The notes below the pieces were generated by a model. That model was not told the origin of the DNA. It worked only from the letters and a program-made list of their open reading frames with translations, and searched no databases. A stretch of DNA of 64,000 nucleotides, from NCBI GenBank assembly GCA_015067315.1, contig SVMR01000007.1, forward strand, positions 42,040 through 106,039. Reading direction: 5' to 3'. Of the stretch, positions 7,296 to 63,295 are shown in pieces. Made by a program: the position numbers and the translations under genes. This DNA is from Oscillospiraceae bacterium (GTDB taxonomy: Bacteria > Bacillota > Clostridia > Oscillospirales > Ruminococcaceae). Every line of letters starts with the position of its first letter. Within the stretch, counting starts at the first letter, position 1.

Positions 7296-7421
7296 GGGAT
7301 TTTTTAACCGCCTGCGGTTAAAAAAGGCTGGGGGATTCTTTTGTAATTTTCCGGTATTTTAAGGAAGAATCCCTCCGTCATTTCCTGCGGAAATGCCACC
7401 TCCCTTTAACAAGGGAGGCTA
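7296..7421. repeat. Hairpin repeat cluster
   Basis: TTTTTTAACCG-cctg-CGGTTAAAAAA; CCCTCCGTCATTTCCTGCGGAAATGCCACCTCCCTTTAACAAGGGAGGCT. Confidence 0.8.
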
Positions 7422-7588
7422 TTGCCTTCCGGGAATTTTTGTTTTAGGTAATAATTCACAAAAATTCTGCGTAAAGTCTATGAAATGACACGGATTGAAA
7501 TTTTTATTTTCCGGTGTTATCATTATAATAACTTATTGTATGCCGTTCTACTCCACCAAATAGGCTGCATACATAAAAGAAGGAGGAT

Positions 7589-7720
7589 ATGTCAAAACCG
7601 CCCGACTCGCGGTGCGGCAGTGTGGAGACCTGCCGTAATGTCTTGTTCCGCTTTGCCGGAAAAGGCGAGGGATTTCGCCCGGATGGGGATTTCCCGGAGT
7701 CGTATTTATGGCAACTGTAA
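7589..7720 (+). CDS. Short leader ORF (43 aa) overlapping the start of the MsmX-type ATPase gene
   Basis: AAGGAGGATATG start; MSKPPDSRCGSVETCRNVLFRFAGKGEGFRPDGDFPESYLWQL*; overlaps downstream ATG by 13 nt. Confidence 0.5.
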   Translation: MSKPPDSRCGSVETCRNVLFRFAGKGEGFRPDGDFPESYLWQL

Positions 7721-16632: not shown

Positions 16633-16691
16633 TTTCTTTGGTTCTCCTTTTGTTTTTTGTTGAAAGGGATTTCCTCCGGGAATCATTTTTG

Positions 16692-17015
16692 CGGAACGGT
16701 CAAGACCGTTCCCTACAATAAAGCGGCGGGTTTATAATTCAAAACCGTAGGGGCAGATATTATCCGCTGGTTTTAACTGGACAGAGTTACAATCCTTCAC
16801 CCGACTTCGTCGGGAGCAAACTCTTGCGGTGACCAAAATATTCTGCGGCATTTGCCTTGAATATTTTGACCGCGGCGCCAAACCTTGCTCGCTTCATCGT
16901 CCACAGGACGCGCTTCGCAAGCTTTGCTCTTTACACAAGGGAGCCTGCCCTCCGGGTTAATTATAATCCCTCTTTCGTCACCTTCGGTGACACCTTCCCC
17001 TCTGGGAAGGCTTAC
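16692..17015. repeat. Composite hairpin repeat cluster
   Basis: CGGAACGGTCAAGACCGTTCCCTACA; CCCTCTTTCGTCACCTTCGGTGACACCTTCCCCTCTGGGAAGGCT. Confidence 0.85.
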
Positions 17016-17021
17016 AAAAAT

Positions 17022-17205
17022 ACCCCGCTTTGCCGAACAGTCCATCGTTGAAACCCGGTCATATGACAAGGGTGGGTAAAGTTCTCCCGGCAAATTCACG
17101 TTCCCCTGATCCAAAAGGCAGGGCCTACATTACAGTGCCGGAGCGGAACTCCCGTTTAACGATTGTTGGATTAAAAAAACGGACGATTCTCGCACAAAGC
17201 AGGGT
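17022..17205 (-). ncRNA. ssrS: Candidate 6S RNA (SsrS-like)
   Basis: 184-nt intergenic transcript candidate; closing stem ACCCTGCTTTG/CAAAGCGGGGT (one G-U) pairs the two ends and is followed by TATTTTT; inner stems CTCCGGCA/TGCCGGGAG and CCCTG/CAGGG. Confidence 0.6.
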
Positions 17206-17235
17206 GTTTTACTATATTATGTTTTTCGGCGGAAA

Positions 17236-22289: not shown

Positions 22290-22868
22290 TTTGTCCCTCA
22301 TCCGCCACGCTTTTAAGAACAGGCGCGCGGCCGAGGGATTCTTTTCAGCCTCCCCTATTAGGGGAGGTGGATTTTTCGGCGGCTTGCCGACGGAAAAGAC
22401 GAAAGGGTGGCAACGGTTTTTTCGGATAGATTTATTAAAACAATGTAGGTGCGGATATTATCCGCCCGTTTTGTAATTGGATGGAGTTGACACCTCATCC
22501 GTCACTTCGTGCCACCTTTTGCTCAGCCGCAGACGGCAACCCCTCTGTCTGCTTCGCAGACATCTCCCCTAACAGGGGAGTCTCCTCAAGGAGAAGGCTG
22601 ACCCTCCGGGTTTCCTTATTAAAGAGAACGGATTCTTCGCTTCGCTCAGAATGACATTGGTCTGTCATTGCGAGCCTTCGCAGAAGGCGTGGCAATCCGT
22701 TTTCCCTTTTATCGGAACGGTCAAGACCGTTCCCTACAGTAACGCAATTGGCTTACAATTACTAAACCGTAGGGGCGGATATATCCACCCGGTTTTAACT
22801 GGACAGAGTCAACACTTCATCGGTCACCTGCGGTGACAGCTTCCCCGACCGGAAGGCTTTAAAGGAAT
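22290..22868. repeat. Composite hairpin repeat cluster (~580 bp)
   Basis: Ordered modules shared with 30780-31315 and 42015-42548. Confidence 0.9.
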
Positions 22869-22975: not shown

Positions 22976-25573
22976 ATGAAGATTCTTGCTGTGGATTCGA
23001 ACAGCATTATGAACCGGGCTTTTTACGGAATCAAGGTTCTTACAACAAAGGACGGTTTTTTCACCAACGCGATTTACGGTTTTCTTTCGATTTTGCTTAC
23101 CGCAATTTCCGAAACGAAGCCGGACGCAATTGTTTTTGCTTTTGACGTTCATGCGCCCACTTTCCGCCATGAATTTTACAAAGAATATAAAGCCGGCCGC
23201 CACGCGACCCCCCAGGAACTTATTGACCAGTTCCCGGTTATGAAAGAGCTTCTCGGATATCTCGGATATCCGGTAATCGCAATCGAAGGTTTTGAGGCGG
23301 ACGATATTCTCGGAACGGTTTCCCGTCTTTGTGAGGAACAGGGGGCGGACTGCGTTATTTCAACCGGTGACCGGGACAGCCTTCAGCTTATCGGCGAGCA
23401 CACTTCCGTCCGCCTTGCGACCACAAAAATGGGCGCGCCGGTTTCGACTATGATGGATATTCCCGCCGTTCACGAAAAATACGGCGTTGAACCCATTGAA
23501 CTTATCGAAGTCAAGGCGCTTATGGGTGACACAAGCGACAACATTCCCGGCGTTCCGGGAATCGGCGAAAAAACCGCCCTTGACCTTATCCAAAGATATC
23601 ACAGCGTCGATTATATCTATGAGCATTTTGACGAGCTTGAACTTAAACCCGCGCAAAGAAAGAAGCTTGAAGAGGGAAAAGATTCCGCATATCTGAGCAG
23701 AAGGCTCGGCGAAATAAACCGCTTTGCGCCGATTCCGGAAAATCTTGAGGATTACGTGCTCAAAAACCGGAACGAGGCGGCTGCGGTCGCGCTTCTTACG
23801 AAGCTTGAAATGTATAAGATGATTGAAAGGCTCGGACTTGACCCTTCGAAGGCGGCGGAAATTCCTTCGGAAAACGCAAAATCGAAGGAGAAAATGGAAG
23901 TTGTATCCGGGGATTGTTCCTCTTTTGGTGAATTCGAGGATTCCGTGCTCACGGAAGTTCTTTTCGAAAGCGAAGGGGACGACCTTACGGCGGTTTGCCT
24001 TGTTTCCGGGGTAAAAGCCGTGCTCATTGAGAACGACGGGTTCTTTTTTGACGCTTCCTTTGCAAAATTTCTGTGCTCAAAGGGCAAAAAACGCACCGAT
24101 GACCTTAAATTCCTTTCCCGCTGGGCGGAAAACCACGGCGCGGCTGTTGAAAACTGCGTGATGGATTCTTCCCTTGCGGGATATATCCTTAACGTTTCCG
24201 GCGACGATTATTCCGTCGGAAGGCTCTCTTCGCTCTACCATGCCGAAAACTTTGAACTTTCCGGCGAAACCGGTGCTCATTCCGGGCTTCTTGAAAAGGC
24301 GGCGGCTTTTTCCGACCTTTGCGAAAAGCTCCGATTGGAACTTCACAGCCACGGCGAGGAAAAAATCCTCGACGAAATCGAACTTCCGCTTGCAAAAATC
24401 CTTGCTTCGATGGAACTCCGGGGATTCAAAATCGACCCGGAAGGAATTAAAAACTTCGGAACCGAACTTTTGAGCACCATTTCCGAAACGGAACAAAGAA
24501 TCTATCAGCTTTGCGGCGAGGAATTCAATATTCTTTCGCCGAAACAGCTTGGGGTTGTGCTTTTTGAGCATCTCGGACTTCCGGCGAAGAAAAAGACCAA
24601 AAGCGGATATTCCACAAGCGCGGACGTTCTTGAAAATCTGCGCACATATCACCCGGCAATCGACGAGATTCTTGAATACAGAAAGCTTACGAAGCTTAAT
24701 TCCACATACGTTGAGGGACTTCTCAATGCTCTTGCTCCGGACGGAAGGGTTCACACCCGTTTTAACCAGAAGGAAACCAGAACCGGAAGGATAAGTTCCC
24801 TTGAACCGAACCTTCAGAATATTCCGATCCGAACCGAACTCGGAAGCAGAATGCGCGGATTTTTTGTTGCGAAGGAAGGTTACACCCTTATTGACGCGGA
24901 CTATTCCCAGATCGAGCTTCGGGTTCTTGCCCATCTTGCTCAGGACGAAAACATGATTTCCGCTTTTACCGGCGGAACGGATGTTCACACCCAGACCGCT
25001 TCCCAGGTTTTCGGCGTTCCGGAAGATTACGTGACTTCCCAGATGAGAAGCAGGGCAAAGGCAGTTAACTTCGGAATCGTTTACGGAATCGGCGCCTGGA
25101 GCCTTGGGGAAAACATCGGCGTTCCGACGAGGGAAGCGCAGGAATATATCGACAGCTATCTTTCCCATTACAGCGGCGTTGACCGTTTTATGAAAGAGAG
25201 CATTGAAACCGCAAAAAAATGCGGTTTTGCGGTAACTTCCTACGGAAGAAGAAGATATCTTCCGGAACTTTCGAGCAGCAACTTCAATCTCCGTTCCTTC
25301 GGCGAAAGGGTTGCAAGAAACATGCCCATTCAGGGAACCGCGGCGGACATCATCAAGCTTGCCATGGTAAAGGTTGAAAACCGGCTTGCGGCGGAAAAGC
25401 TTGACGCAAAACTTATAATGCAGGTTCACGACGAACTTATTGTTGAAGCGAACGAAAACTGCGCGGAAAAAGCGGCGGAAATTCTTAAATTCGAGATGGA
25501 AAACGCCGCAAAACTTTCCGTTCCGATGAAAGTTGACGTCGGCACCGGAAAAACCTGGCTTTTGGCGCATTAA
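22976..25573 (+). CDS. polA: DNA polymerase I
   Basis: 5'-3' exo domain (MKILAVDSNSIMNRAFYG), polymerase motifs DADYSQIELRVLAHL, RSRAKAVNFGIVYG, QVHDELIVE. Confidence 0.98.
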   Translation: MKILAVDSNSIMNRAFYGIKVLTTKDGFFTNAIYGFLSILLTAISETKPDAIVFAFDVHAPTFRHEFYKEYKAGRHATPQELIDQFPVMKELLGYLGYPVIAIEGFEADDILGTVSRLCEEQGADCVISTGDRDSLQLIGEHTSVRLATTKMGAPVSTMMDIPAVHEKYGVEPIELIEVKALMGDTSDNIPGVPGIGEKTALDLIQRYHSVDYIYEHFDELELKPAQRKKLEEGKDSAYLSRRLGEINRFAPIPENLEDYVLKNRNEAAAVALLTKLEMYKMIERLGLDPSKAAEIPSENAKSKEKMEVVSGDCSSFGEFEDSVLTEVLFESEGDDLTAVCLVSGVKAVLIENDGFFFDASFAKFLCSKGKKRTDDLKFLSRWAENHGAAVENCVMDSSLAGYILNVSGDDYSVGRLSSLYHAENFELSGETGAHSGLLEKAAAFSDLCEKLRLELHSHGEEKILDEIELPLAKILASMELRGFKIDPEGIKNFGTELLSTISETEQRIYQLCGEEFNILSPKQLGVVLFEHLGLPAKKKTKSGYSTSADVLENLRTYHPAIDEILEYRKLTKLNSTYVEGLLNALAPDGRVHTRFNQKETRTGRISSLEPNLQNIPIRTELGSRMRGFFVAKEGYTLIDADYSQIELRVLAHLAQDENMISAFTGGTDVHTQTASQVFGVPEDYVTSQMRSRAKAVNFGIVYGIGAWSLGENIGVPTREAQEYIDSYLSHYSGVDRFMKESIETAKKCGFAVTSYGRRRYLPELSSSNFNLRSFGERVARNMPIQGTAADIIKLAMVKVENRLAAEKLDAKLIMQVHDELIVEANENCAEKAAEILKFEMENAAKLSVPMKVDVGTGKTWLLAH

Positions 25574-25576
25574 TTT

Positions 25577-25602
25577 GCGGAACGGTCAAGACCGTTCCCT
25601 AC
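25577..25602. repeat. CGGAACGGTCAAGACCGTTCCCTACC repeat
   Basis: Perfect inverted repeat GGAACGGTC/GACCGTTCC. Confidence 0.85.
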
Positions 25603-25622
25603 CATACAAAGGAGTTATTTTA

Positions 25623-26243
25623 ATGAGCGACATCTGGAGTTTGTTCGATAAAATCAAAAAAACGGAAAAAGTTTCCGGTCCGCCGGAATATATTATAGTC
25701 GGGCTTGGAAATCCTGGAAAGGATTATGAAAAAACCCGCCATAACACTGGTTTTATGGCCCTTGACCTTATTTCCGACAAGCTTTCCGTCCATATCGACC
25801 GCCTTAAATACAAGGCGCTTACAACAGTTTGTGAAATCGGCGGTCATCATGTGCTTTTGATGAAACCCCAGACTTATATGAATCTTTCCGGCGAAGCGGT
25901 TTTTGCCGCGATGGATTTTTATAAAATTCCCCTCGACAAAGTTATTGTTGTTTTCGACGACACGACCCTTGACGTGGGAAAAATGAGAATCCGCAAAAAG
26001 GGAAGTGCCGGCGGACACAACGGACTTAAAAGCATAATCGCCTGCTGCGGCGGCGACGGTTTTCCGAGAATCAAAATCGGAATCGGCAAAAAGCCGGAAG
26101 GTTGGGACCTTGCGGATTGGGTGCTTGGAAAATATTCCGAGGATGACCTTAAAACCCTTCAGGGAATGTATGAAAATTCCTTCGAGGCAGTTAAACTTAT
26201 GGTTTCGGGAAAACTTGACGAAGCAATGAATAAATTTAACTGA
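25623..26243 (+). CDS. pth: Peptidyl-tRNA hydrolase
   Basis: IIVGLGNPGKDYEKTRHNTGFMALD, KPQTYMNLSGEAV, GSAGGHNGLKSI. Confidence 0.97.
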   Translation: MSDIWSLFDKIKKTEKVSGPPEYIIVGLGNPGKDYEKTRHNTGFMALDLISDKLSVHIDRLKYKALTTVCEIGGHHVLLMKPQTYMNLSGEAVFAAMDFYKIPLDKVIVVFDDTTLDVGKMRIRKKGSAGGHNGLKSIIACCGGDGFPRIKIGIGKKPEGWDLADWVLGKYSEDDLKTLQGMYENSFEAVKLMVSGKLDEAMNKFN

Positions 26244-30779: not shown

Positions 30780-31315
30780 AAGGTTCCCTTGTTAAAGGGG
30801 GCTGGATTTTTTTAGCCTCCCCTATCAGGGGAGGTGGATTTTTCGGCGGCTTGCTGCCGGAAAAGACGGAAGGGTGGTTCCGTTTTTTTGCGGAACATCG
30901 GGGACGACGTTCCCTACAGTAACGCAATGAGGTTTATTGAAAAAATGTATGTGTGGATATTATCCGCCCGTTTTTAATTGAACGGGGTTTGTCCCTCATC
31001 CGTCTGCTTCGCAGACACCTTCCCCCGATGGAAGGCTAATGCCCTCCGGGAATCCTTTTTAAAGAGAACGGATTCTTCGCTTCGCTCAGAATGACATTGG
31101 TCTGTCATTGCGAGCCTTCGCAGAAGGCGTGGCAATCCGTTTCTCCTTTATGCGGAACGGTCAAGACCGTTCCCTACCGTAAAACGGCGGATTTATAATT
31201 TCAAAACCGTATGGGCGGATATTATCCGCCCGTTTTTGATTGGACAGGGTTACAATCCCTCAGTCACCTTCGGTGACAGCTCCCTTTGCACAAGGGAGCC
31301 TTCCCGACCGATTTT
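30780..31315. repeat. Composite hairpin repeat cluster (~535 bp)
   Basis: Ordered modules shared with 22290-22868. Confidence 0.9.
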
Positions 31316-34290: not shown

Positions 34291-34422
34291 ACCTCCTCAG
34301 AGGAGGAGGGGGACCGTCGAAGACGGTGGAGGAGGGATTTTTTTGTTACCCTCCGGGTAATTGGTTATCCCTCTTTCGTCAAAACCTTCGGTTTTGCCAC
34401 CTTCCCCTCTGGGAAGGCTTTT
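34291..34422. repeat. Solo repeat with the DUF559-element frame
   Basis: ACCTCCTCAGAGGAGGAGGGGGACCGTC-gaa-GACGGTGGAGGAGGGATT ... CCCTCTTTCGTCAAAACCTTCGGTTTTGCCACCTTCCCCTCTGGGAAGGCT. Confidence 0.85.
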
Positions 34423-42014: not shown

Positions 42015-42548
42015 ACCTTTTTATAAAAAAGGCCCCCTTGTCAAAGGGGGCTGTCACGCTTTTAAGAACAGGTGCGTGACTGGGGGATTCTTTTATAATT
42101 TACCTGTATTTTAAAGAGGAATCCCTCCGTCATTTCCTGCGGAAATGCCACCTCCCTTTAGGCAAGGGAGGCTACCCTCCGGGAATCCTTTTATAAAGAG
42201 TACGGATTCTTCGCTTCACTCAGAATGACATTGGTCTGTCATTGCGAGCCTTCGCAGAAGGCGTGGCAATCCGTTCCCCTTTTATGCGGAACGGTCAGGA
42301 CCGTTCCCTACAATAAAGCGAATGGGTTTTATTGAAATATTGCAGGGGCGCAGCTTTGTGTGCGCACGTTTTTTAATGGGACGGGGTTAACACCTCATCA
42401 GTCACCTGCGGTGTCACCTTCCCCTCCGGGAATCCTTTTTGCGGAACGGTCAAGACCGTTCCCTACAATAAATTAAGGCTGACCTTCCGGGTTACTTGGT
42501 TGTTCCTCATTTGTCTGCTTTGCAGACACCTTTTTCAGAGGAAGGCTT
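42015..42548. repeat. Composite hairpin repeat cluster between oriC and rpmH
   Basis: Same modules and largely the same order as 22290-22868 and 30780-31315. Confidence 0.9.
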
Positions 42549-45851: not shown

Positions 45852-47216
45852 ATGAGCACCATTGCAGCAATTTCAACGCCGCTTTCCGCTTCCGGATTGG
45901 GAGTTATCCGAATTTCCGGAGAGGAAGCCGTTTTTGTGGGGGAAAAGATGTTCCGGCCTTTTAAAGGCGGAAAGGAACTTTCTTCCCTTACCGGATATTC
46001 CTGCGCTTACGGAAGGGTTTTTGATTCCGAAGGAGATATTGACGAGGCGGTTGCAACGGTTTTTCTTGCGCCGAAAAGCTATACCGGTGAAAATACTGTT
46101 GAATTTTCCTGCCACGGAAGTCCGGCGCTTTTAAAAAGGGTTTTAAGAGCCGCCCTTGATTGCGGTGCGGAACTTGCGGGTCCTGGCGAATTTACAAAAA
46201 GAGCGCTTCTTAACGGAAAACTTACCCTTACCCAGGCGGAAGCGGTTATGGATCTTATTTCCTCAAAATCCGCCAGCGCCGGAAAAGCCGCGCTTGTTGT
46301 TCGTGACGGCGCGCTTTACCGCAAAATCCGTTCTGTTACCGAAAGCCTTACGGAACTTGAAACGCATCTTGCCGCCTGGAGTGATTATCCGGAAGAGGAC
46401 GTTGAGGAACTTTCTGACGAACATCTTGCGGAGGTTCTTGAAGAAACCGAAAGAATTCTCAAACGGCTTATGGAAACTTATGACGCGGGAAAAATTATCC
46501 GCGAAGGGGCAACCACGGTTATTGCCGGAAAGCCAAACGTCGGAAAATCCACCCTTATGAACCTTATTTCCGGAAGGGACAGAAGCATTGTAACGGAAAT
46601 TGCAGGAACGACCAGGGACGTTGTTGAGGAAAGCGTGCTCGTCGGCGATATTCCAATAAGACTTCTTGATACGGCGGGCATCCGCGACACCGAAGACGCT
46701 GTCGAAAGAATCGGCGTCGATATGGCAAACACGGAAATCGAACGCTGTGACGTTGTAATTGCGGTTTTTGATTCCAGCAGACCTTTTGACAGCACCGATT
46801 TTGAGCTTATTGAAAAGCTTAAAGGCAGACCGGCGGTTGCCGTTATAAACAAATCCGACCTTGAGATTCAGGCGGACGTTGATGCGGTTAAGGCGGGATT
46901 TGAAAACGTTGTTACAATTTCCGCAAGAAAAGGCGACGGGGAAGAGGAATTCCGGAACGCTCTTGCGAAAGTTCTTAAAACCGCCGACCTTGACCCGGCG
47001 GAACCGGTTATGGCGAACGAAAGACAGCTTGACTGCGTCCGCAGAGCAAAAAAAGCCATTGACGAGGCGCTTGATGCGGTTGCTTTCGGAATGACCCTTG
47101 ACGCGGTGGGAATCTGCATTGAAACCGCATTGGATGCGCTTTATGAACTCACCGGCGAAAAAGCCAGCGACGCGGTTATCGAAAAAGTTTTCGAAAGATT
47201 CTGCGTAGGAAAATAA
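45852..47216 (+). CDS. mnmE: tRNA modification GTPase MnmE
   Basis: STIAAISTPLSASGLGVIRISGEEA; GKPNVGKSTLMN; C-terminal FCVGK. Confidence 0.98.
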   Translation: MSTIAAISTPLSASGLGVIRISGEEAVFVGEKMFRPFKGGKELSSLTGYSCAYGRVFDSEGDIDEAVATVFLAPKSYTGENTVEFSCHGSPALLKRVLRAALDCGAELAGPGEFTKRALLNGKLTLTQAEAVMDLISSKSASAGKAALVVRDGALYRKIRSVTESLTELETHLAAWSDYPEEDVEELSDEHLAEVLEETERILKRLMETYDAGKIIREGATTVIAGKPNVGKSTLMNLISGRDRSIVTEIAGTTRDVVEESVLVGDIPIRLLDTAGIRDTEDAVERIGVDMANTEIERCDVVIAVFDSSRPFDSTDFELIEKLKGRPAVAVINKSDLEIQADVDAVKAGFENVVTISARKGDGEEEFRNALAKVLKTADLDPAEPVMANERQLDCVRRAKKAIDEALDAVAFGMTLDAVGICIETALDALYELTGEKASDAVIEKVFERFCVGK

Positions 47217-47268
47217 CCTCCTCGGAGGAGGAGGTGGCATCGCGAAGCGATGACGGAGGAGGGATAAT
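47217..47268. repeat. Left inverted repeat of DUF559 element
   Basis: CCTCCTCGGAGGAGGAGGTGGCATCGC-gaa-GCGATGACGGAGGAGGGATAAT. Confidence 0.8.
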
Positions 47269-47307
47269 CCATGACAAGTTCAGATAAGCCCTCCGGTTTA
47301 CCTGTTA

Positions 47308-47367
47308 ATCCCTCATCCACCATTTTCTTTAGGAAAATGGTCCCCCTTCCCCTCTGGGAAGGTATAA
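47308..47367. repeat. Paired-hairpin repeat internal to the DUF559 element
   Basis: CCCTCATCCACCATTTTC-ttta-GGAAAATGGTCCCCCTTCCCCTCTGGGAAGG. Confidence 0.85.
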
Positions 47368-47408
47368 ACAATGCAAAATTCAAAGACCGCATTGGAGGAG
47401 GGATAGCC

Positions 47409-47774
47409 TTGCCAAGAAATTTTGATTCAAATCCGAATTTGTGCGAACTATCCCGTGAACTGCGTAAAAATATGACACCGGAGGAAAATAAGCTTTGGTA
47501 TCAGTTTTTGAGAAATTACGATATACATTTTTCAAGGCAGAGAGTTATTGGAAATTATATCGCTGATTTCTATTGCAGAAGAGCAAATCTTGTTATCGAG
47601 ATAGATGGTGCGCAACATTATACACCGGATTCGATAGAATACGACAAAGAAAGAACTGAATTTTTAAAAACTTGCGGAATTGAGGTTTTGCGGTTTTTGA
47701 ATAAGGATATAAATTATAATTTTGAAAACGTATGTGTTTACATAGACAAAATTGTAAAACAGAGGATGGGTTGA
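47409..47774 (+). CDS. DUF559 endonuclease-domain protein (Vsr-like, PD-(D/E)XK)
   Basis: RELRKNMTPEENKLWYQFLRNYDIHFSRQRVIGNYIADFYCRRANLVIEIDGAQHY; TTG start after GGAGGAGGG. Confidence 0.88.
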   Translation: MPRNFDSNPNLCELSRELRKNMTPEENKLWYQFLRNYDIHFSRQRVIGNYIADFYCRRANLVIEIDGAQHYTPDSIEYDKERTEFLKTCGIEVLRFLNKDINYNFENVCVYIDKIVKQRMG

Positions 47775-47827
47775 ATCCCTCCTCCACCGTTGCCTTTGGC
47801 AACGGTCCCCCTCCTCCTCCGAGGAGG
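47775..47827. repeat. Right inverted repeat of DUF559 element
   Basis: ATCCCTCCTCCACCGTTGCC-ttt-GGCAACGGTCCCCCTCCTCCTCCGAGGAGG, reverse complement frame matches left copy. Confidence 0.8.
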
Positions 47828-51626: not shown

Positions 51627-51646
51627 ATTTATTGCTCCTTTTTAGG

Positions 51647-51672
51647 CGGAACGGTCAAGACCGTTCCCTACG
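51647..51672. repeat. CGGAACGGTCAAGACCGTTCCCTACG repeat
   Basis: Same as 25577-25602. Confidence 0.85.
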
Positions 51673-51673
51673 G

Positions 51674-51883
51674 TTAGTCGTTTGGTTTATAGGAAAGGAT
51701 GTCGCCGGGTTGGCAGTCAAGGGCTTCGCAGATTGCTTCAAGGGTTGAAAAGCGGATTGCCTTTGCTTTTCCGGTTTTTAAAATCGAAAGATTTGCCATG
51801 GTGATTCCGACTTTTTCGGAAAGTTCGGTCATGCTCATTTTTCGCTTTGCGAGCATAACGTCAAGATTTACTTCAATAGACAT
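51674..51883 (-). CDS. XRE/YozG-type helix-turn-helix regulator
   Basis: MSIEVNLDVMLAKRKMSMTELSEKVGITMANLSILKTGKAKAIRFSTLEAICEALDCQPGDIL; GGAGG RBS 8 nt upstream of ATG. Confidence 0.88.
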   Translation of the reverse strand: MSIEVNLDVMLAKRKMSMTELSEKVGITMANLSILKTGKAKAIRFSTLEAICEALDCQPGDILSYKPND

Positions 51884-57657: not shown

Positions 57658-57792
57658 ATTAGCCTTCCTCTTGAGGGGAAGGTGGCATCGCGCAAGCGAT
57701 GACGGATGAGGTGTTTCTGCTCAATATCGCGGTTTCATGTAAAACACCTCATCACCGCCTTCGGCGGAGCTTCTCCTCAAGGAGAAGCTTTA
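57658..57792. repeat. Two paired-hairpin repeats in opposite orientation
   Basis: AGCCTTCCTCTTGAGGGGAAGGTGGCATCGC-gcaa-GCGATGACGGATGAGGTG ... CACCTCATCACCGCC-ttc-GGCGGAGCTTCTCCTCAAGGAGAAGCTT. Confidence 0.85.
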
Positions 57793-59624: not shown

Positions 59625-60353
59625 TTATTGTTCCGGAAGAAAACCGGGAAGTTCGGAAGAATCGCAAAAATCGAACCGGAAAGCTTTTTCTCTTTCAACC
59701 TGGTAAAGTTCGGCGTAGGTTGCCTGGACATAAGGTTCCAGGAAAAGAAGACCTATTCCGCAGGTGAGAGATCCGAGAAGAATCCAGCCGATGAAGGAAA
59801 GACCGAGAATGAAGATATCAAATTTTTCATCATCGGTCATTTTTTTTGAAAGTTCAAAGGCGCGCTTTGAATCAATTCCGGGGTTTTCCGCAAGGATATA
59901 GGGTACCATAAAATATTCATAGCTTTTTATGATTCCGGGGATTATGAAAAGAAAACTCCAAAGAAGGACTTTAAGATTCAAAAGGAACATGATTTTAATG
60001 ACGTTAAGATAGTTTCGGCTTTTGAAAACCCAGAAAACGCGTTCAACCTTTGAACCGGAAATGCGGTTTTCCATAAAGAATCTGTGCATTCCCACAAGGA
60101 TGGGATATCCGACAAAAAGATTGAAAAGAACGGAAAAACCGAAAATTGAAAACAGCGCGGTCAGCAAAACCGGAGAATATTCCGGGTTTTCCAAAATGGA
60201 CTGATAGTCGGGATTTTCGGCAATAAGGGAGATAATGCTGCCCGGGTCGGTCATAAGAAAACCGGTAAGAATCGTTGCGAAGAAGGGAGTCCAATATCCG
60301 AAACGGCTCAGTACGGATTTTGCCCTTTGTTTAAGTTCAGAGATTTGCCACAT
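59625..60353 (-). CDS. DUF975-family membrane protein
   Basis: MWQISELKQRAKSVLSRFGYW; LLWSFLFIIPGIIKSYEYFMVPYILAENPGIDSKRAFELSKKMT. Confidence 0.88.
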   Translation of the reverse strand: MWQISELKQRAKSVLSRFGYWTPFFATILTGFLMTDPGSIISLIAENPDYQSILENPEYSPVLLTALFSIFGFSVLFNLFVGYPILVGMHRFFMENRISGSKVERVFWVFKSRNYLNVIKIMFLLNLKVLLWSFLFIIPGIIKSYEYFMVPYILAENPGIDSKRAFELSKKMTDDEKFDIFILGLSFIGWILLGSLTCGIGLLFLEPYVQATYAELYQVEREKAFRFDFCDSSELPGFLPEQ

Positions 60354-60511
60354 AATAACACCTCCAAATTAATTTTATTATAACATAAATAAAAATATTT
60401 TACAAAAGAAACAGGAAAAGAAAGGATAGTTGCGTCAATGTTTCGTCATTTTCTCTATTAATTATACTATGACGCTATAATTATGTCAATAATTAGTCAC
60501 GGGTGATTTAT

Positions 60512-60685
60512 ATGAAAAATGAAATGGGACGCTTTACTTTAAGAGTTCCGAAAACTCTTCTTGATAAAATCGGATATATTGCCGAATATGAGGGCAGAAC
60601 CAAAAACAAAGAGATTGAGCAGCTTGTCAAAAAGCGTATTGCCGATTTTGAAAAAGAACATGGCGCAATCGAAACCGACGAATAA
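60512..60685 (+). CDS. Arc/ribbon-helix-helix-like small DNA-binding protein
   Basis: MKNEMGRFTLRVPKTLLDKIGYIAEYEGRTKNKEIEQLVKKRIADFEKEHG. Confidence 0.8.
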   Translation: MKNEMGRFTLRVPKTLLDKIGYIAEYEGRTKNKEIEQLVKKRIADFEKEHGAIETDE

Positions 60686-60717
60686 AAATGAGCACGGCTT
60701 GCCGTGCTCATTTTTTT
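60682..60717. terminator. Terminator (copy 2 of identical pair)
   Basis: ATAAAAATGAGCACGGCTTGCCGTGCTCATTTTTTT. Confidence 0.85.
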
Positions 60718-60724
60718 AGGGAAA

Positions 60725-61195
60725 AAAGGCTCCTTTGTGCAAAGGGAGCTGTCGCAGCCTTGCCGTGACTGAGGGATTGTAACCCTGTCCGATTAAAAAA
60801 CGGGGGAGCAAGTTCCGCCATACATTGAATTAATAAGCCTTCCCGGAGGGGAAGGTGTCACCGAAGGTGACGAAAGAGGGATTGCCAAGAACCCGGAGGG
60901 TAGCCTTCCCTTGGGGGAAGGTGGCACGCCCCAAGAATAAAACGTGACGGATGAGGGACAAACCCTGTCCAATTAAAAACGGGCGACCGCATAGCGCCCT
61001 GAGCACGAAGTGCGAGGAAGTACCCTTGGGGTAGGTTGCCCTTACATTGATTTTGCGAAACCACCGGAAACAGGGCGGTAATCTCGACAGAATCCTCCGG
61101 TCACGCACCTGTTCTTAATTGCGTGACAGCCCCCTTTAGGCAAGGGGGCCTTTTCGCCCGCCGAAAAATCCGCACCACCTAATAGGGGAGGCTGA
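60725..61195. repeat. Composite hairpin repeat cluster in inverted orientation
   Basis: Reverse-complement modules incl. the 11560-11640 long module. Confidence 0.88.
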
Positions 61196-61289
61196 AAAAA
61201 TCCGCCTTTTTATAGAAAATGTTTACAATTTATTTAATAAAAACACAAAAAAACACGATATAATATAACCGTTAAGGAGGTGCTTTTTT

Positions 61290-62132
61290 ATGTGGACACG
61301 CGCAAGAATCAAACAGGAAGCAAGAAACGGTCTGCGCCGCTTCGGATACTGGATGCCGCTTTTTGTAACCTTTGTTGCGGGAATTCTTACCGGCGGAATC
61401 ACCACCGGCGGAACGACGACGAACAGCATTACGACGGAATATACTGCCGAATACAGCGGCGACCTTACTCCGGCGGGATTTTTTGCCTTTATTGATGAAT
61501 TCTTCGGCGAGTTTTTCTATGAAATCGGCGCTGCTTTTGAGAACATTTTCAGCAATCCGCTTATTGCGATGACAACCGCTTTCTTCGTTGTTCTCGGTTT
61601 TATGATCGGACTTGTTGTTGCCTTCGGTTGGAGCGCTTTTGTTGCCGGTCCGGTTATAGTCGGCAAAAACCGCTATTTTATGGAGCACAGGGCTTTTGAT
61701 TCAAAATTTGAAAGACTTTTCTGGTCCTTCAGAAGCGGAAGATATATGAACGTTGTGAAAATAATGTTCTGGAGGGAAGTTAAAATCTTCCTTTGGAGCC
61801 TGCTTTTTGTGATTCCGGGAATTATAAAATCCTATGAATACAGCATGGTTCCCTATATTCTTGCGGAAAACCCGCAGATTTCTTCCGAACGCGCCTTTGA
61901 ACTTTCGAAAAAGATGACGAAGGGCGAAAAATGGAAGATTTTTGTGCTTGATCTTTCCTTCATCGGCTGGTATATTGTCGGTTTCCTCTGCTGCTGCGTG
62001 GGAATGTATTTTGTTGAGCCTTACCGCGAAGCAACCTTTGCCGAACTTTATCAGGTTATGAGAGAAAAAGCACACGGACTCGGTTTTTCCGATTACACCG
62101 AACTTCCCGGATTTTTTCCGGAACAGAGATAA
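61290..62132 (+). CDS. DUF975-family membrane protein
   Basis: MWTRARIKQEARNGLRRFGYW; FLWSLLFVIPGIIKSYEYSMVPYILAENPQISSERAFELSKKMT. Confidence 0.88.
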   Translation: MWTRARIKQEARNGLRRFGYWMPLFVTFVAGILTGGITTGGTTTNSITTEYTAEYSGDLTPAGFFAFIDEFFGEFFYEIGAAFENIFSNPLIAMTTAFFVVLGFMIGLVVAFGWSAFVAGPVIVGKNRYFMEHRAFDSKFERLFWSFRSGRYMNVVKIMFWREVKIFLWSLLFVIPGIIKSYEYSMVPYILAENPQISSERAFELSKKMTKGEKWKIFVLDLSFIGWYIVGFLCCCVGMYFVEPYREATFAELYQVMREKAHGLGFSDYTELPGFFPEQR

Positions 62133-62238
62133 CCGATTCAAAAAGACTGCCGGCTCCGGCGGTCTTTTTTTGCCGTTGGATTAATACTTGTTTTATAAAA
62201 AAGCCGTGATATAATGAAAACAAAGGGGGCGGATTTTT

Positions 62239-63036
62239 TTGATTTGCAGAAAAGAACTTAAAGAAAACGCAAAGGCAGTTCTTAAAAGATTCGGGTACTG
62301 GAACGTATTCGCGGTGACGCTGATTTCCGGATTTTTGGCGGAGGGAATAGGTTCAAGCGCCATGAGCGGAGTTTCGTCAATGTTTTCAAGCATTATTTCG
62401 GCGGTTTTTGAAACTTCTTCGGATTCGCCTTCATATTCGGAAACCATGGAAACTGTTTTCGGAAATCCGATTTTCACAGCCTGGTTCGTCATTATTCTCA
62501 CTGCTGTGATACTGATTACATTTGCGCTTGCCCTTTGCTTCGGGGTTTTTGTTTCCGGTCCGGTCCTTGCAGGCAAAAACAGATTCTTTATGGAAAACCG
62601 GCTTTACGGTTCAAAATTCGAAAGGCTTTTTTGGGGATTCGGAAAGGGAAGATATCTTCCGATTGCAAAGACCACCTTTGTTTATATGATAAGAATCTTT
62701 TTATGGAGCCTGCTTTTCCTGATTCCGGGAATTATAAAATCCTATGAATATTTCATGGTTATGTATATTCTTTCGGAAAATCCGGAAATCGGCGCCGAAC
62801 GCGCTTTTGAAATTTCGAGCAGAACCACAAAAGGGGAGAAATGGAAGATATTCCTTTTCGAGCTGTCCTTCCTGGGCTGGATACTTCTTGGGTTGCTCAG
62901 CTGCGGAATCGGAGTTTATTTTCTTGAACCCTATTATTACGCTTCCTTTGTGGAGCTTTATCAGAAGCTTCGGGAAAAGGCGATTTCCGAAGGAATTGCG
63001 GATTGCAGCGAACTTCCGGGATATATTCGGAACTGA
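62239..63036 (+). CDS. DUF975-family membrane protein
   Basis: ICRKELKENAKAVLKRFGYW; FLWSLLFLIPGIIKSYEYFMVMYILSENPEIGAERAFEISSRTT. Confidence 0.88.
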   Translation: MICRKELKENAKAVLKRFGYWNVFAVTLISGFLAEGIGSSAMSGVSSMFSSIISAVFETSSDSPSYSETMETVFGNPIFTAWFVIILTAVILITFALALCFGVFVSGPVLAGKNRFFMENRLYGSKFERLFWGFGKGRYLPIAKTTFVYMIRIFLWSLLFLIPGIIKSYEYFMVMYILSENPEIGAERAFEISSRTTKGEKWKIFLFELSFLGWILLGLLSCGIGVYFLEPYYYASFVELYQKLREKAISEGIADCSELPGYIRN

Positions 63037-63139: not shown

Positions 63140-63214
63140 TGGTGACCCGTGCGAGAATCGAACTCGCGTTACAGCCGTGAAAGGGCCGTGTCTTAACCGC
63201 TTGACCAACGGGCC
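63140..63214 (-). tRNA. tRNA-Glu (anticodon TTC), CCA encoded
   Basis: GGCCCGTTGGTCAAGCGGTTAAGACACGGCCCTTTCACGGCTGTAACGCGAGTTCGATTCTCGCACGGGTCACCA cloverleaf. Confidence 0.97.
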
Positions 63215-63218
63215 ATTA

Positions 63219-63295
63219 TGGTAGCGGCGACTGGATTCGAACCGGTGACACTTCGGGTATGAACCGAATGCTCTAGCCAACTGAGCTACGCCGCC
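63219..63295 (-). tRNA. tRNA-Met (anticodon CAT), CCA encoded
   Basis: GGCGGCGTAGCTCAGTTGGCTAGAGCATTCGGTTCATACCCGAAGTGTCACCGGTTCGAATCCAGTCGCCGCTACCA. Confidence 0.95.

Follow-up and report, generated by a model that had tools for sequence, protein, structure and literature searches.

A DUF559 nuclease gene framed by inverted hairpin repeats as a candidate compact mobile element in Oscillospiraceae

The window analysed here (the whole stretch of DNA, 64,000 nucleotides) carries, between mnmE and mnmG, a small DUF559 nuclease gene that lies between two inverted copies of a dispersed hairpin repeat. The comparison with related genomes gave good support for the gene and both of its ends moving as one unit. 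We consider it probable, without regarding it as settled, that this unit is a compact mobile element resembling the REP/RAYT system, about 0.46 kb long and consisting of no more than the DUF559 gene with a hairpin end, in inverted orientation, on each side; the catalytic role of DUF559 is inferred. Gene and ends travel together in many gut bacteria, which suggests a "jumping gene" of a new class; the many nuclease-less copies of the repeat may owe their spread to it as well. The parts of the element in the window are as follows.

47217 to 47265, plus strand: outer left end, an A-type unit with head CCTCCTCGGAGGAGGAGG, core GGCATCGC-GAA-GCGATGAC and tail GGAGGAGGGAT toward the gene (sequence, detector, DNA fold with z of -4.9)
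47310 to 47363, minus strand: secondary inserted unit of the other head type (B, CTTCCC), inverted (sequence, detector, relatives)
47394 to 47404, plus strand: second copy of the tail GGAGGAGGGAT (sequence, relatives)
47409 to 47774, plus strand: DUF559 (PF04480) nuclease gene with a TTG start, 121 amino acids, predicted Vsr/I-Bth0305I fold (Pfam, profile, structure prediction, alignments)
47775 to 47827, minus strand: outer right end, an inverted A-type unit with core ACCGTTGCC-AAA-GGCAACGGT (sequence, detector, DNA fold)

Each unit consists of three parts, namely a head hairpin with a pyrimidine left arm and a purine right arm, a core hairpin of variable sequence, and a purine tail. The left outer unit begins directly after the mnmE stop codon (TAA, 47214 to 47216) and the right one directly after the stop codon of the DUF559 gene (TGA, 47772 to 47774), and the purine tails of both point at the gene. 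The first-pass annotation had placed the open reading frame between two inverted copies of the dispersed unit, and both the sequence and the structural detector confirmed the positions. Its statement that the frames match while the core stems are unrelated was also borne out, since heads and tails are the same at both ends and only the cores differ. No Rfam family matched the units.

The bracketing had been called exact. This description holds for the outer units, but not for the 5' side as one clean unit, because a nested insertion of about 147 bp between the outer left unit and the start codon had been overlooked. The secondary insertion is missing from the orthologous elements of the relatives G002, G010 and G009, and the element is 464 bp long in G002 versus 611 bp in the window; the B-type secondary unit is also present in G014. 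The second copy of GGAGGAGGGAT is the probable Shine-Dalgarno sequence of the nuclease gene, and it is either a remnant of the secondary insertion or was duplicated along with it. The gap before the TTG start, previously given as 8 nt, is in fact 6 nt (ATAGCC) after GGAGGAGGG. A TAA trinucleotide had been noted at the outer ends. The left TAA is indeed there, but it is the mnmE stop codon and also occurs at unoccupied sites; it is therefore no evidence for a target duplication, and this interpretation was ruled out.

The association of the units with DUF559 genes was analyzed by a structural detector. It recognised 25 units in the window, while three simulated Markov-1 sequences yielded none. 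In 437 kb of the window's own genome, 168 units were found. This genome has eight DUF559 genes, the window gene being one of them, and tail-facing units bracket 6 of these 8 genes versus 2 of about 355 other open reading frames. The count covered 363 open reading frames of at least 100 amino acids, 8 of which had tail-facing units within 150 nt. In the two bracketed frames that do not encode DUF559, the units lie 57-149 nt away. Most genes near a unit in this genome showed the opposite orientation. No orientation bias relative to host genes was found. Among 78 matches to PF04480 in 61 genomes of the genus, family and order, the detector found a unit upstream of 59 and downstream of 59, and 47 had units on both sides. 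The matches missed by the detector, when read by eye, mostly represented contig ends, units overlapping the end of the reading frame, and degraded units.

An independent set of 79 DUF559 loci, selected by protein similarity alone, gave inverted flanks, defined by an inverted-repeat score of 24 or more over the gene, at 50 of the 79 loci versus 2 of 109 control reading frames from the same loci. Fisher tests were applied to the bracket counts. The question whether DUF559 genes are framed more often than other genes, which had been proposed as a check, is therefore answered in the affirmative in both data sets. At the level of whole genomes, the samples taken gave no significant association between the presence of units and that of DUF559 (5 of 11 versus 3 of 17 genomes, p = 0.2). 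One relative, G010, has DUF559 genes of the A type only and yet contains B- and D-type units.

Evidence for joint movement comes from the match between the ends, from near-identical copies and from unoccupied sites. The same head type was found at both ends of one element at 35 of 48 unique sites, while shuffling gave a mean of 10.2 and a maximum of 23 in 10,000 trials. With one element kept per site, the unit type followed the nuclease tree with 30 changes versus 51 after shuffling, and none of 200 shuffles was as low. It should be noted that the closeness of same-type ends on the tree would also be expected from plain co-inheritance of the ends with the gene. In G014, and also in G003, copies of about 0.46 kb with 95-97% identity are located at unrelated sites, and the homology of full-length copies extends no further than the outer head edges (AGCCTCCC...GGGAGGCTT). 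The distribution of DUF559 genes is patchy and multi-copy, with 0-12 genes per genome at scattered sites.

The mnmE-mnmG site is without the element in G012, G006, G013 and G004, so that the empty sites to be looked for according to the first-pass annotation do exist. Further element sites are empty in relatives or contain a different pair of units without the gene, and some unoccupied sites, among them one in G012, have no unit at all. No target duplication was seen at the element borders, and the unoccupied sites were too diverged for a reading at the level of single bases. In G045, a DUF559 element has entered a type III restriction methyltransferase (Mod) gene in frame, at the variable linker, and both hairpin units are read through as protein; the Mod homologues of G409 and G044 are uninterrupted.

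The first-pass annotation had named two findings that would refute it: DUF559 homologues at unrelated loci without repeat flanks, or a gene shared by all relatives at mnmE-mnmG with diverged or absent flanks. Neither was obtained, since homologues at unrelated loci do carry flanks and four relatives have no element at this site, and the interpretation is thereby supported. It had proposed that the gene is the autonomous parent or a co-mobilised companion of the nuclease-less repeats. The joint movement of gene and ends agrees with this proposal, as does the architecture shared with gene-less pairs, but catalysis and action in trans have not been demonstrated.

A small uncharacterised reading frame (MNIDEIKLLDIQPSQFYISAKKL..., MNIDEIKLL...) lies between the element and mnmG in several relatives and is missing from the window. 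In G014 and G010, a second identical unit is located beyond this frame. These two facts suggest that the window probably lost the small frame by recombination between repeated units, which remains an inference.

The window protein matched the Pfam DUF559 profile (PF04480) with 104.8 bits against a gathering score of 20.6. A profile search detected PDB entry 3hrl with E = 8e-36 and, at E = 7e-6, the homing endonuclease I-Bth0305I. The AlphaFold2 model (pLDDT 89.7) matched the same two proteins in Foldseek and Vsr more weakly, with TM scores of up to 0.68/0.82 for I-Bth0305I. Residues E26, D53, E64, D66 and H70 are invariant in the alignments. The protein meets the definition of a Vsr-like PD-(D/E)XK fold with conserved acidic and histidine residues. 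No extra domain was found in the stand-alone gene of 121 amino acids, which has DUF559-type domains only; Pfam gave neither a Y1_Tnp match in the gene nor a DDE transposase, and Rfam gave no intron in the window. The dN/dS ratio had a median of 0.11 for same-site orthologues and was 0.06-0.10 for the window gene compared with relatives in the genus. Judged from ratios of about 0.1, the gene is under purifying selection and its protein has been kept functional, although nuclease activity itself is inferred.

Among related proteins, an earlier prediction for YcjD was that it is a Vsr-related PD-(D/E)XK nuclease, and its profile detects Vsr (PMC1189080). Homing endonucleases of the EDxHD family have been described (PMC3943268), and a DUF559-containing gene of Thermosynechococcus has been placed in this family (PMC9403480).

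The units are strand-polar. In the own genome, core loops of the form C(GNA)G and C(TNC)G occurred in a ratio of 96:0, and distinct cores in three sets gave 34:0, 48:0 and 38:1; the same comparison for hairpins outside units gave 17:24. AAA and TTT loops stood at 4:5 without a comparable excess, so the loop excess does not reflect a general purine bias. Minihairpins with C(GNA)G loops, for example d(GCGAAGC), are known for an exceptional stability in DNA, which is far lower in RNA. When folded as single-stranded DNA, the units gave z scores of -3.5 to -6.9, and no shuffled sequence was equally stable. Standard DNA folding parameters, however, showed only a small difference between the strands. 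Recognition of one DNA strand of the unit in single-stranded form is therefore an inference that rests on the loop counts, which we take as the strongest hint in its favour.

Units without a gene are arranged in the same way. In the own genome, adjacent units faced each other with their tails 30 times and pointed away from each other once, and 20 of the 30 tail-facing pairs were spaced by 20-60 nt. One pair of 142 bp gave 59 matches in the genome, of which about a dozen were near full length, and its frame GGAGGGATTC...GAATCCC is also found at D-type DUF559 elements. The following copies lie in the window.

34291 to 34417, no strand assigned: gene-less tail-facing pair of units with heads A and B, the element architecture without the reading frame
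57663 to 57787, no strand assigned: gene-less tail-facing pair of units
42082 to 42128, minus strand: inner part (GGAGGGATTC...GAATCCCCC) of a gene-less pair of about 142 bp
7330 to 7376: second inner part of a gene-less pair of about 142 bp

By analogy, a gene-less pair would be to the DUF559 element what a non-autonomous element is to an autonomous one, or a REPIN to its RAYT.

These observations could be explained by the following mechanism. Each end presents a head hairpin, a core hairpin that usually has a C(GNA)G loop, and a purine tail directed inward. The nuclease would recognise these hairpin ends in single-stranded DNA, for example on the lagging-strand template, and DUF559 would nick at them. 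The excised or copied strand might then enter a new, mostly intergenic site with the aid of host replication and repair, and the nuclease may also act in trans on gene-less pairs. The gene appears to be fitted exactly between the ends, since its stop codon often comes from the downstream unit and the upstream tail probably functions in ribosome binding. Against this mechanism it must be said that no enzymatic activity has been shown, that no site has been read to the base, that the genome-level association of units with DUF559 did not reach significance, and that units persist without the cognate nuclease type in G010.

A different explanation is that the nuclease cuts a site or repeat and that homologous repair then copies the gene together with its units, which would be targets or homology arms, not the ends of a transposon. 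The closest characterised enzyme is a homing endonuclease, different elements reuse the same intergenic sites, and the units are common enough to serve as homology arms. Spread of this type is nevertheless hard to reconcile with copies at many unrelated sites whose shared sequence stops at the heads, with unoccupied sites that lack any unit, such as the one in G012, and with pairs at otherwise unoccupied sites that can differ in type from the element. There is also no intron, intein or additional DNA-binding domain. We regard this explanation as unlikely.

It is less likely still that the DUF559 gene is a passenger, captured between two units that are moved by a RAYT-type transposase or by replication slippage. 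Most genomes of the genus contain Y1_Tnp (RAYT-like) genes, these genes occupy the same intergenic positions, and the units of G010 without their nuclease type would agree with this possibility. However, none of 12 Y1_Tnp genes examined had DUF559-type units nearby, and the only Y1_Tnp gene of the window genome is flanked on both sides by a GTAG-tagged hairpin of repeat family D2, GTAGGGAACGGTCTTGACCGTTCCG in one copy and its inverse in the other. Each of the two nuclease families thus lies within its own hairpins in this genome, and these two results lowered the standing of a RAYT as the mover of the DUF559 units. In addition, a dN/dS near 0.1 is unexpected for cargo, and DUF559 is the one recurrent bracketed gene and is matched to the type of its ends. 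The view that DUF559 is an ordinary gene of very-short-patch repair, around which terminators or mRNA-stabilising hairpins accumulated, seems to us very improbable. The Vsr-like fold would suit such a role, and Caulobacter VsrA, which contains a DUF559 domain, has a proposed role in T:G mismatch repair (PMC12907096). A repair gene would not be expected to be scattered in a patchy fashion with 0-12 copies per genome or to travel with matched ends, and such brackets are missing from other genes.

Some intergenic sites that carry DUF559 elements or gene-less pairs in one species are occupied by RAYT-like genes in relatives, in each case behind the same host genes. We read this as the use of shared insertion hot spots. 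The hairpin family GTAGGGAACGGTCTTGACCGTTCCGC, which flanks the Y1_Tnp gene of the window genome, is a second dispersed family and is GTAG-tagged like classical REPs. Its copies in the window are located at 16686-16754, 22707-22775, 25572-25640, 31147-31215, 42281-42349, 42436-42504 and 51641-51709. No GTAG tag was found in either window unit of the DUF559 element or in the listed heads and tails.

The mobile element inferred here resembles REP/RAYT systems (REPtrons, BIMEs, REPINs) in having a small nuclease gene beside inverted, strand-polar hairpin repeats, in its many gene-less pairs and, probably, in recognition of single-stranded DNA. RAYTs are HUH Y1 enzymes whose repeats are tagged GTAG or CGTC (PMC8266576, PMC3733652). 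The DUF559 element instead has a PD-(D/E)XK Vsr-like enzyme and two hairpins per unit. Neither tag was noticed in its units, a statement that is firmer for GTAG than for CGTC, and its gene is mobile and present in multiple copies, not housekeeping-like. The analogy with REP/RAYT drawn in the first-pass annotation is apt for the inverted pairs and the many gene-less copies and, as that annotation already allowed for the enzyme, does not extend to the HUH Y1 transposase and the GTAG tag. IS200/IS605 elements share the subterminal strand-polar hairpins, the very compact size and the absence of an observed target duplication; their transposase, however, is of the HUH Y1 type (PF01797) and not PD-(D/E)XK, whereas the DUF559 ends are inverted copies of one unit. 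Without an HUH enzyme and a GTAG tag, the DUF559 element falls outside both groups.

EDxHD homing endonucleases such as I-Bth0305I share the catalytic fold, by profile and by structure, as well as the selfish spread of a gene. The DUF559 element differs in having no intron, intein or tethered DNA-binding region and in not homing into one cognate allele: near-identical copies with their own hairpin ends lie at several unrelated sites of one genome. With no intron and many unrelated sites, it stands outside the homing endonucleases. The unit pairs of about 142 bp are short, multi-copy and gene-less like MITEs and other gene-less bacterial repeats, but neither terminal inverted repeats like those of DDE transposons nor a target duplication were found; the element also differs from classical insertion sequences in having no DDE transposase. 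YcjD and other DUF559 proteins, Vsr and 3HRL belong to the same protein family, 3HRL being a solved member (NGO0050), and the accessible parts of the literature on them mention neither a mobile element nor a flanking repeat. A literature search did not reveal a description of the association between DUF559 and hairpins; its coverage of preprints and subscription papers was limited, and an earlier description cannot be excluded. We know of no family to which the DUF559 hairpin element belongs.

The results give a concrete genomic role to a large "domain of unknown function" family and name a candidate enzyme for abundant hairpin repeats that previously had none. If the nuclease mobilises its ends, transposition would be built on a Vsr-type nickase in one of the smallest autonomous elements known (about 0.46 kb). 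Caution is also required in annotation, as some genes labelled "very short patch repair" may be mobile elements.

Inverted flanks around DUF559 genes were also found in two Deinococcus plasmids, Sphingomonas, Pseudanabaena and two gut phage contigs. The same test failed for E. coli ycjD, Azospirillum, Photobacterium, Sinorhizobium, Synechocystis and Shinella, which have similar repeats nearby. On the two Deinococcus plasmids, the long inverted flanks lie between metabolic genes and, judged by eye, have heads and not tails toward DUF559. Since some taxa fail the flank test and the orientation seems to be reversed in Deinococcus, the occurrence of hairpin-ended DUF559 elements across phyla is suggestive and not shown. 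A search of PF04480 at phylum level was not used, because apart from three strong matches outside the order its matches were mostly weak, many of them in long reading frames. It remains a tentative proposal, less likely than not to hold in full, that a widespread class of hairpin-ended elements owes its mobility to DUF559 nucleases. Such elements would move through single-stranded DNA by a PD-(D/E)XK nickase, not an HUH or DDE enzyme, and the nucleases would be the source of much of the C/T-G/A hairpin load in several phyla.

In E. coli, ycjD lies between sapF and fabI, with hairpins of the CCCTCACCCTAACCCTCTCCCC type downstream; the same repeat has other locations, one of them beside tkt in strain 300444. 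A clean presence/absence polymorphism of ycjD was considered and rejected, as the strains examined without ycjD have an efflux-pump cluster between sapF and fabI.

Other features of the window were also recorded. Rfam matches correspond to a malK-I RNA at 7533-7713 on the plus strand and a 6S RNA at 17018-17208 on the minus strand, and two tRNAs are located at 63143-63295 on the minus strand. The region from 59629 to 62981 contains long diverged repeats, with inverted arms of 489 nt (70%) and a direct repeat of 288 nt (73%).
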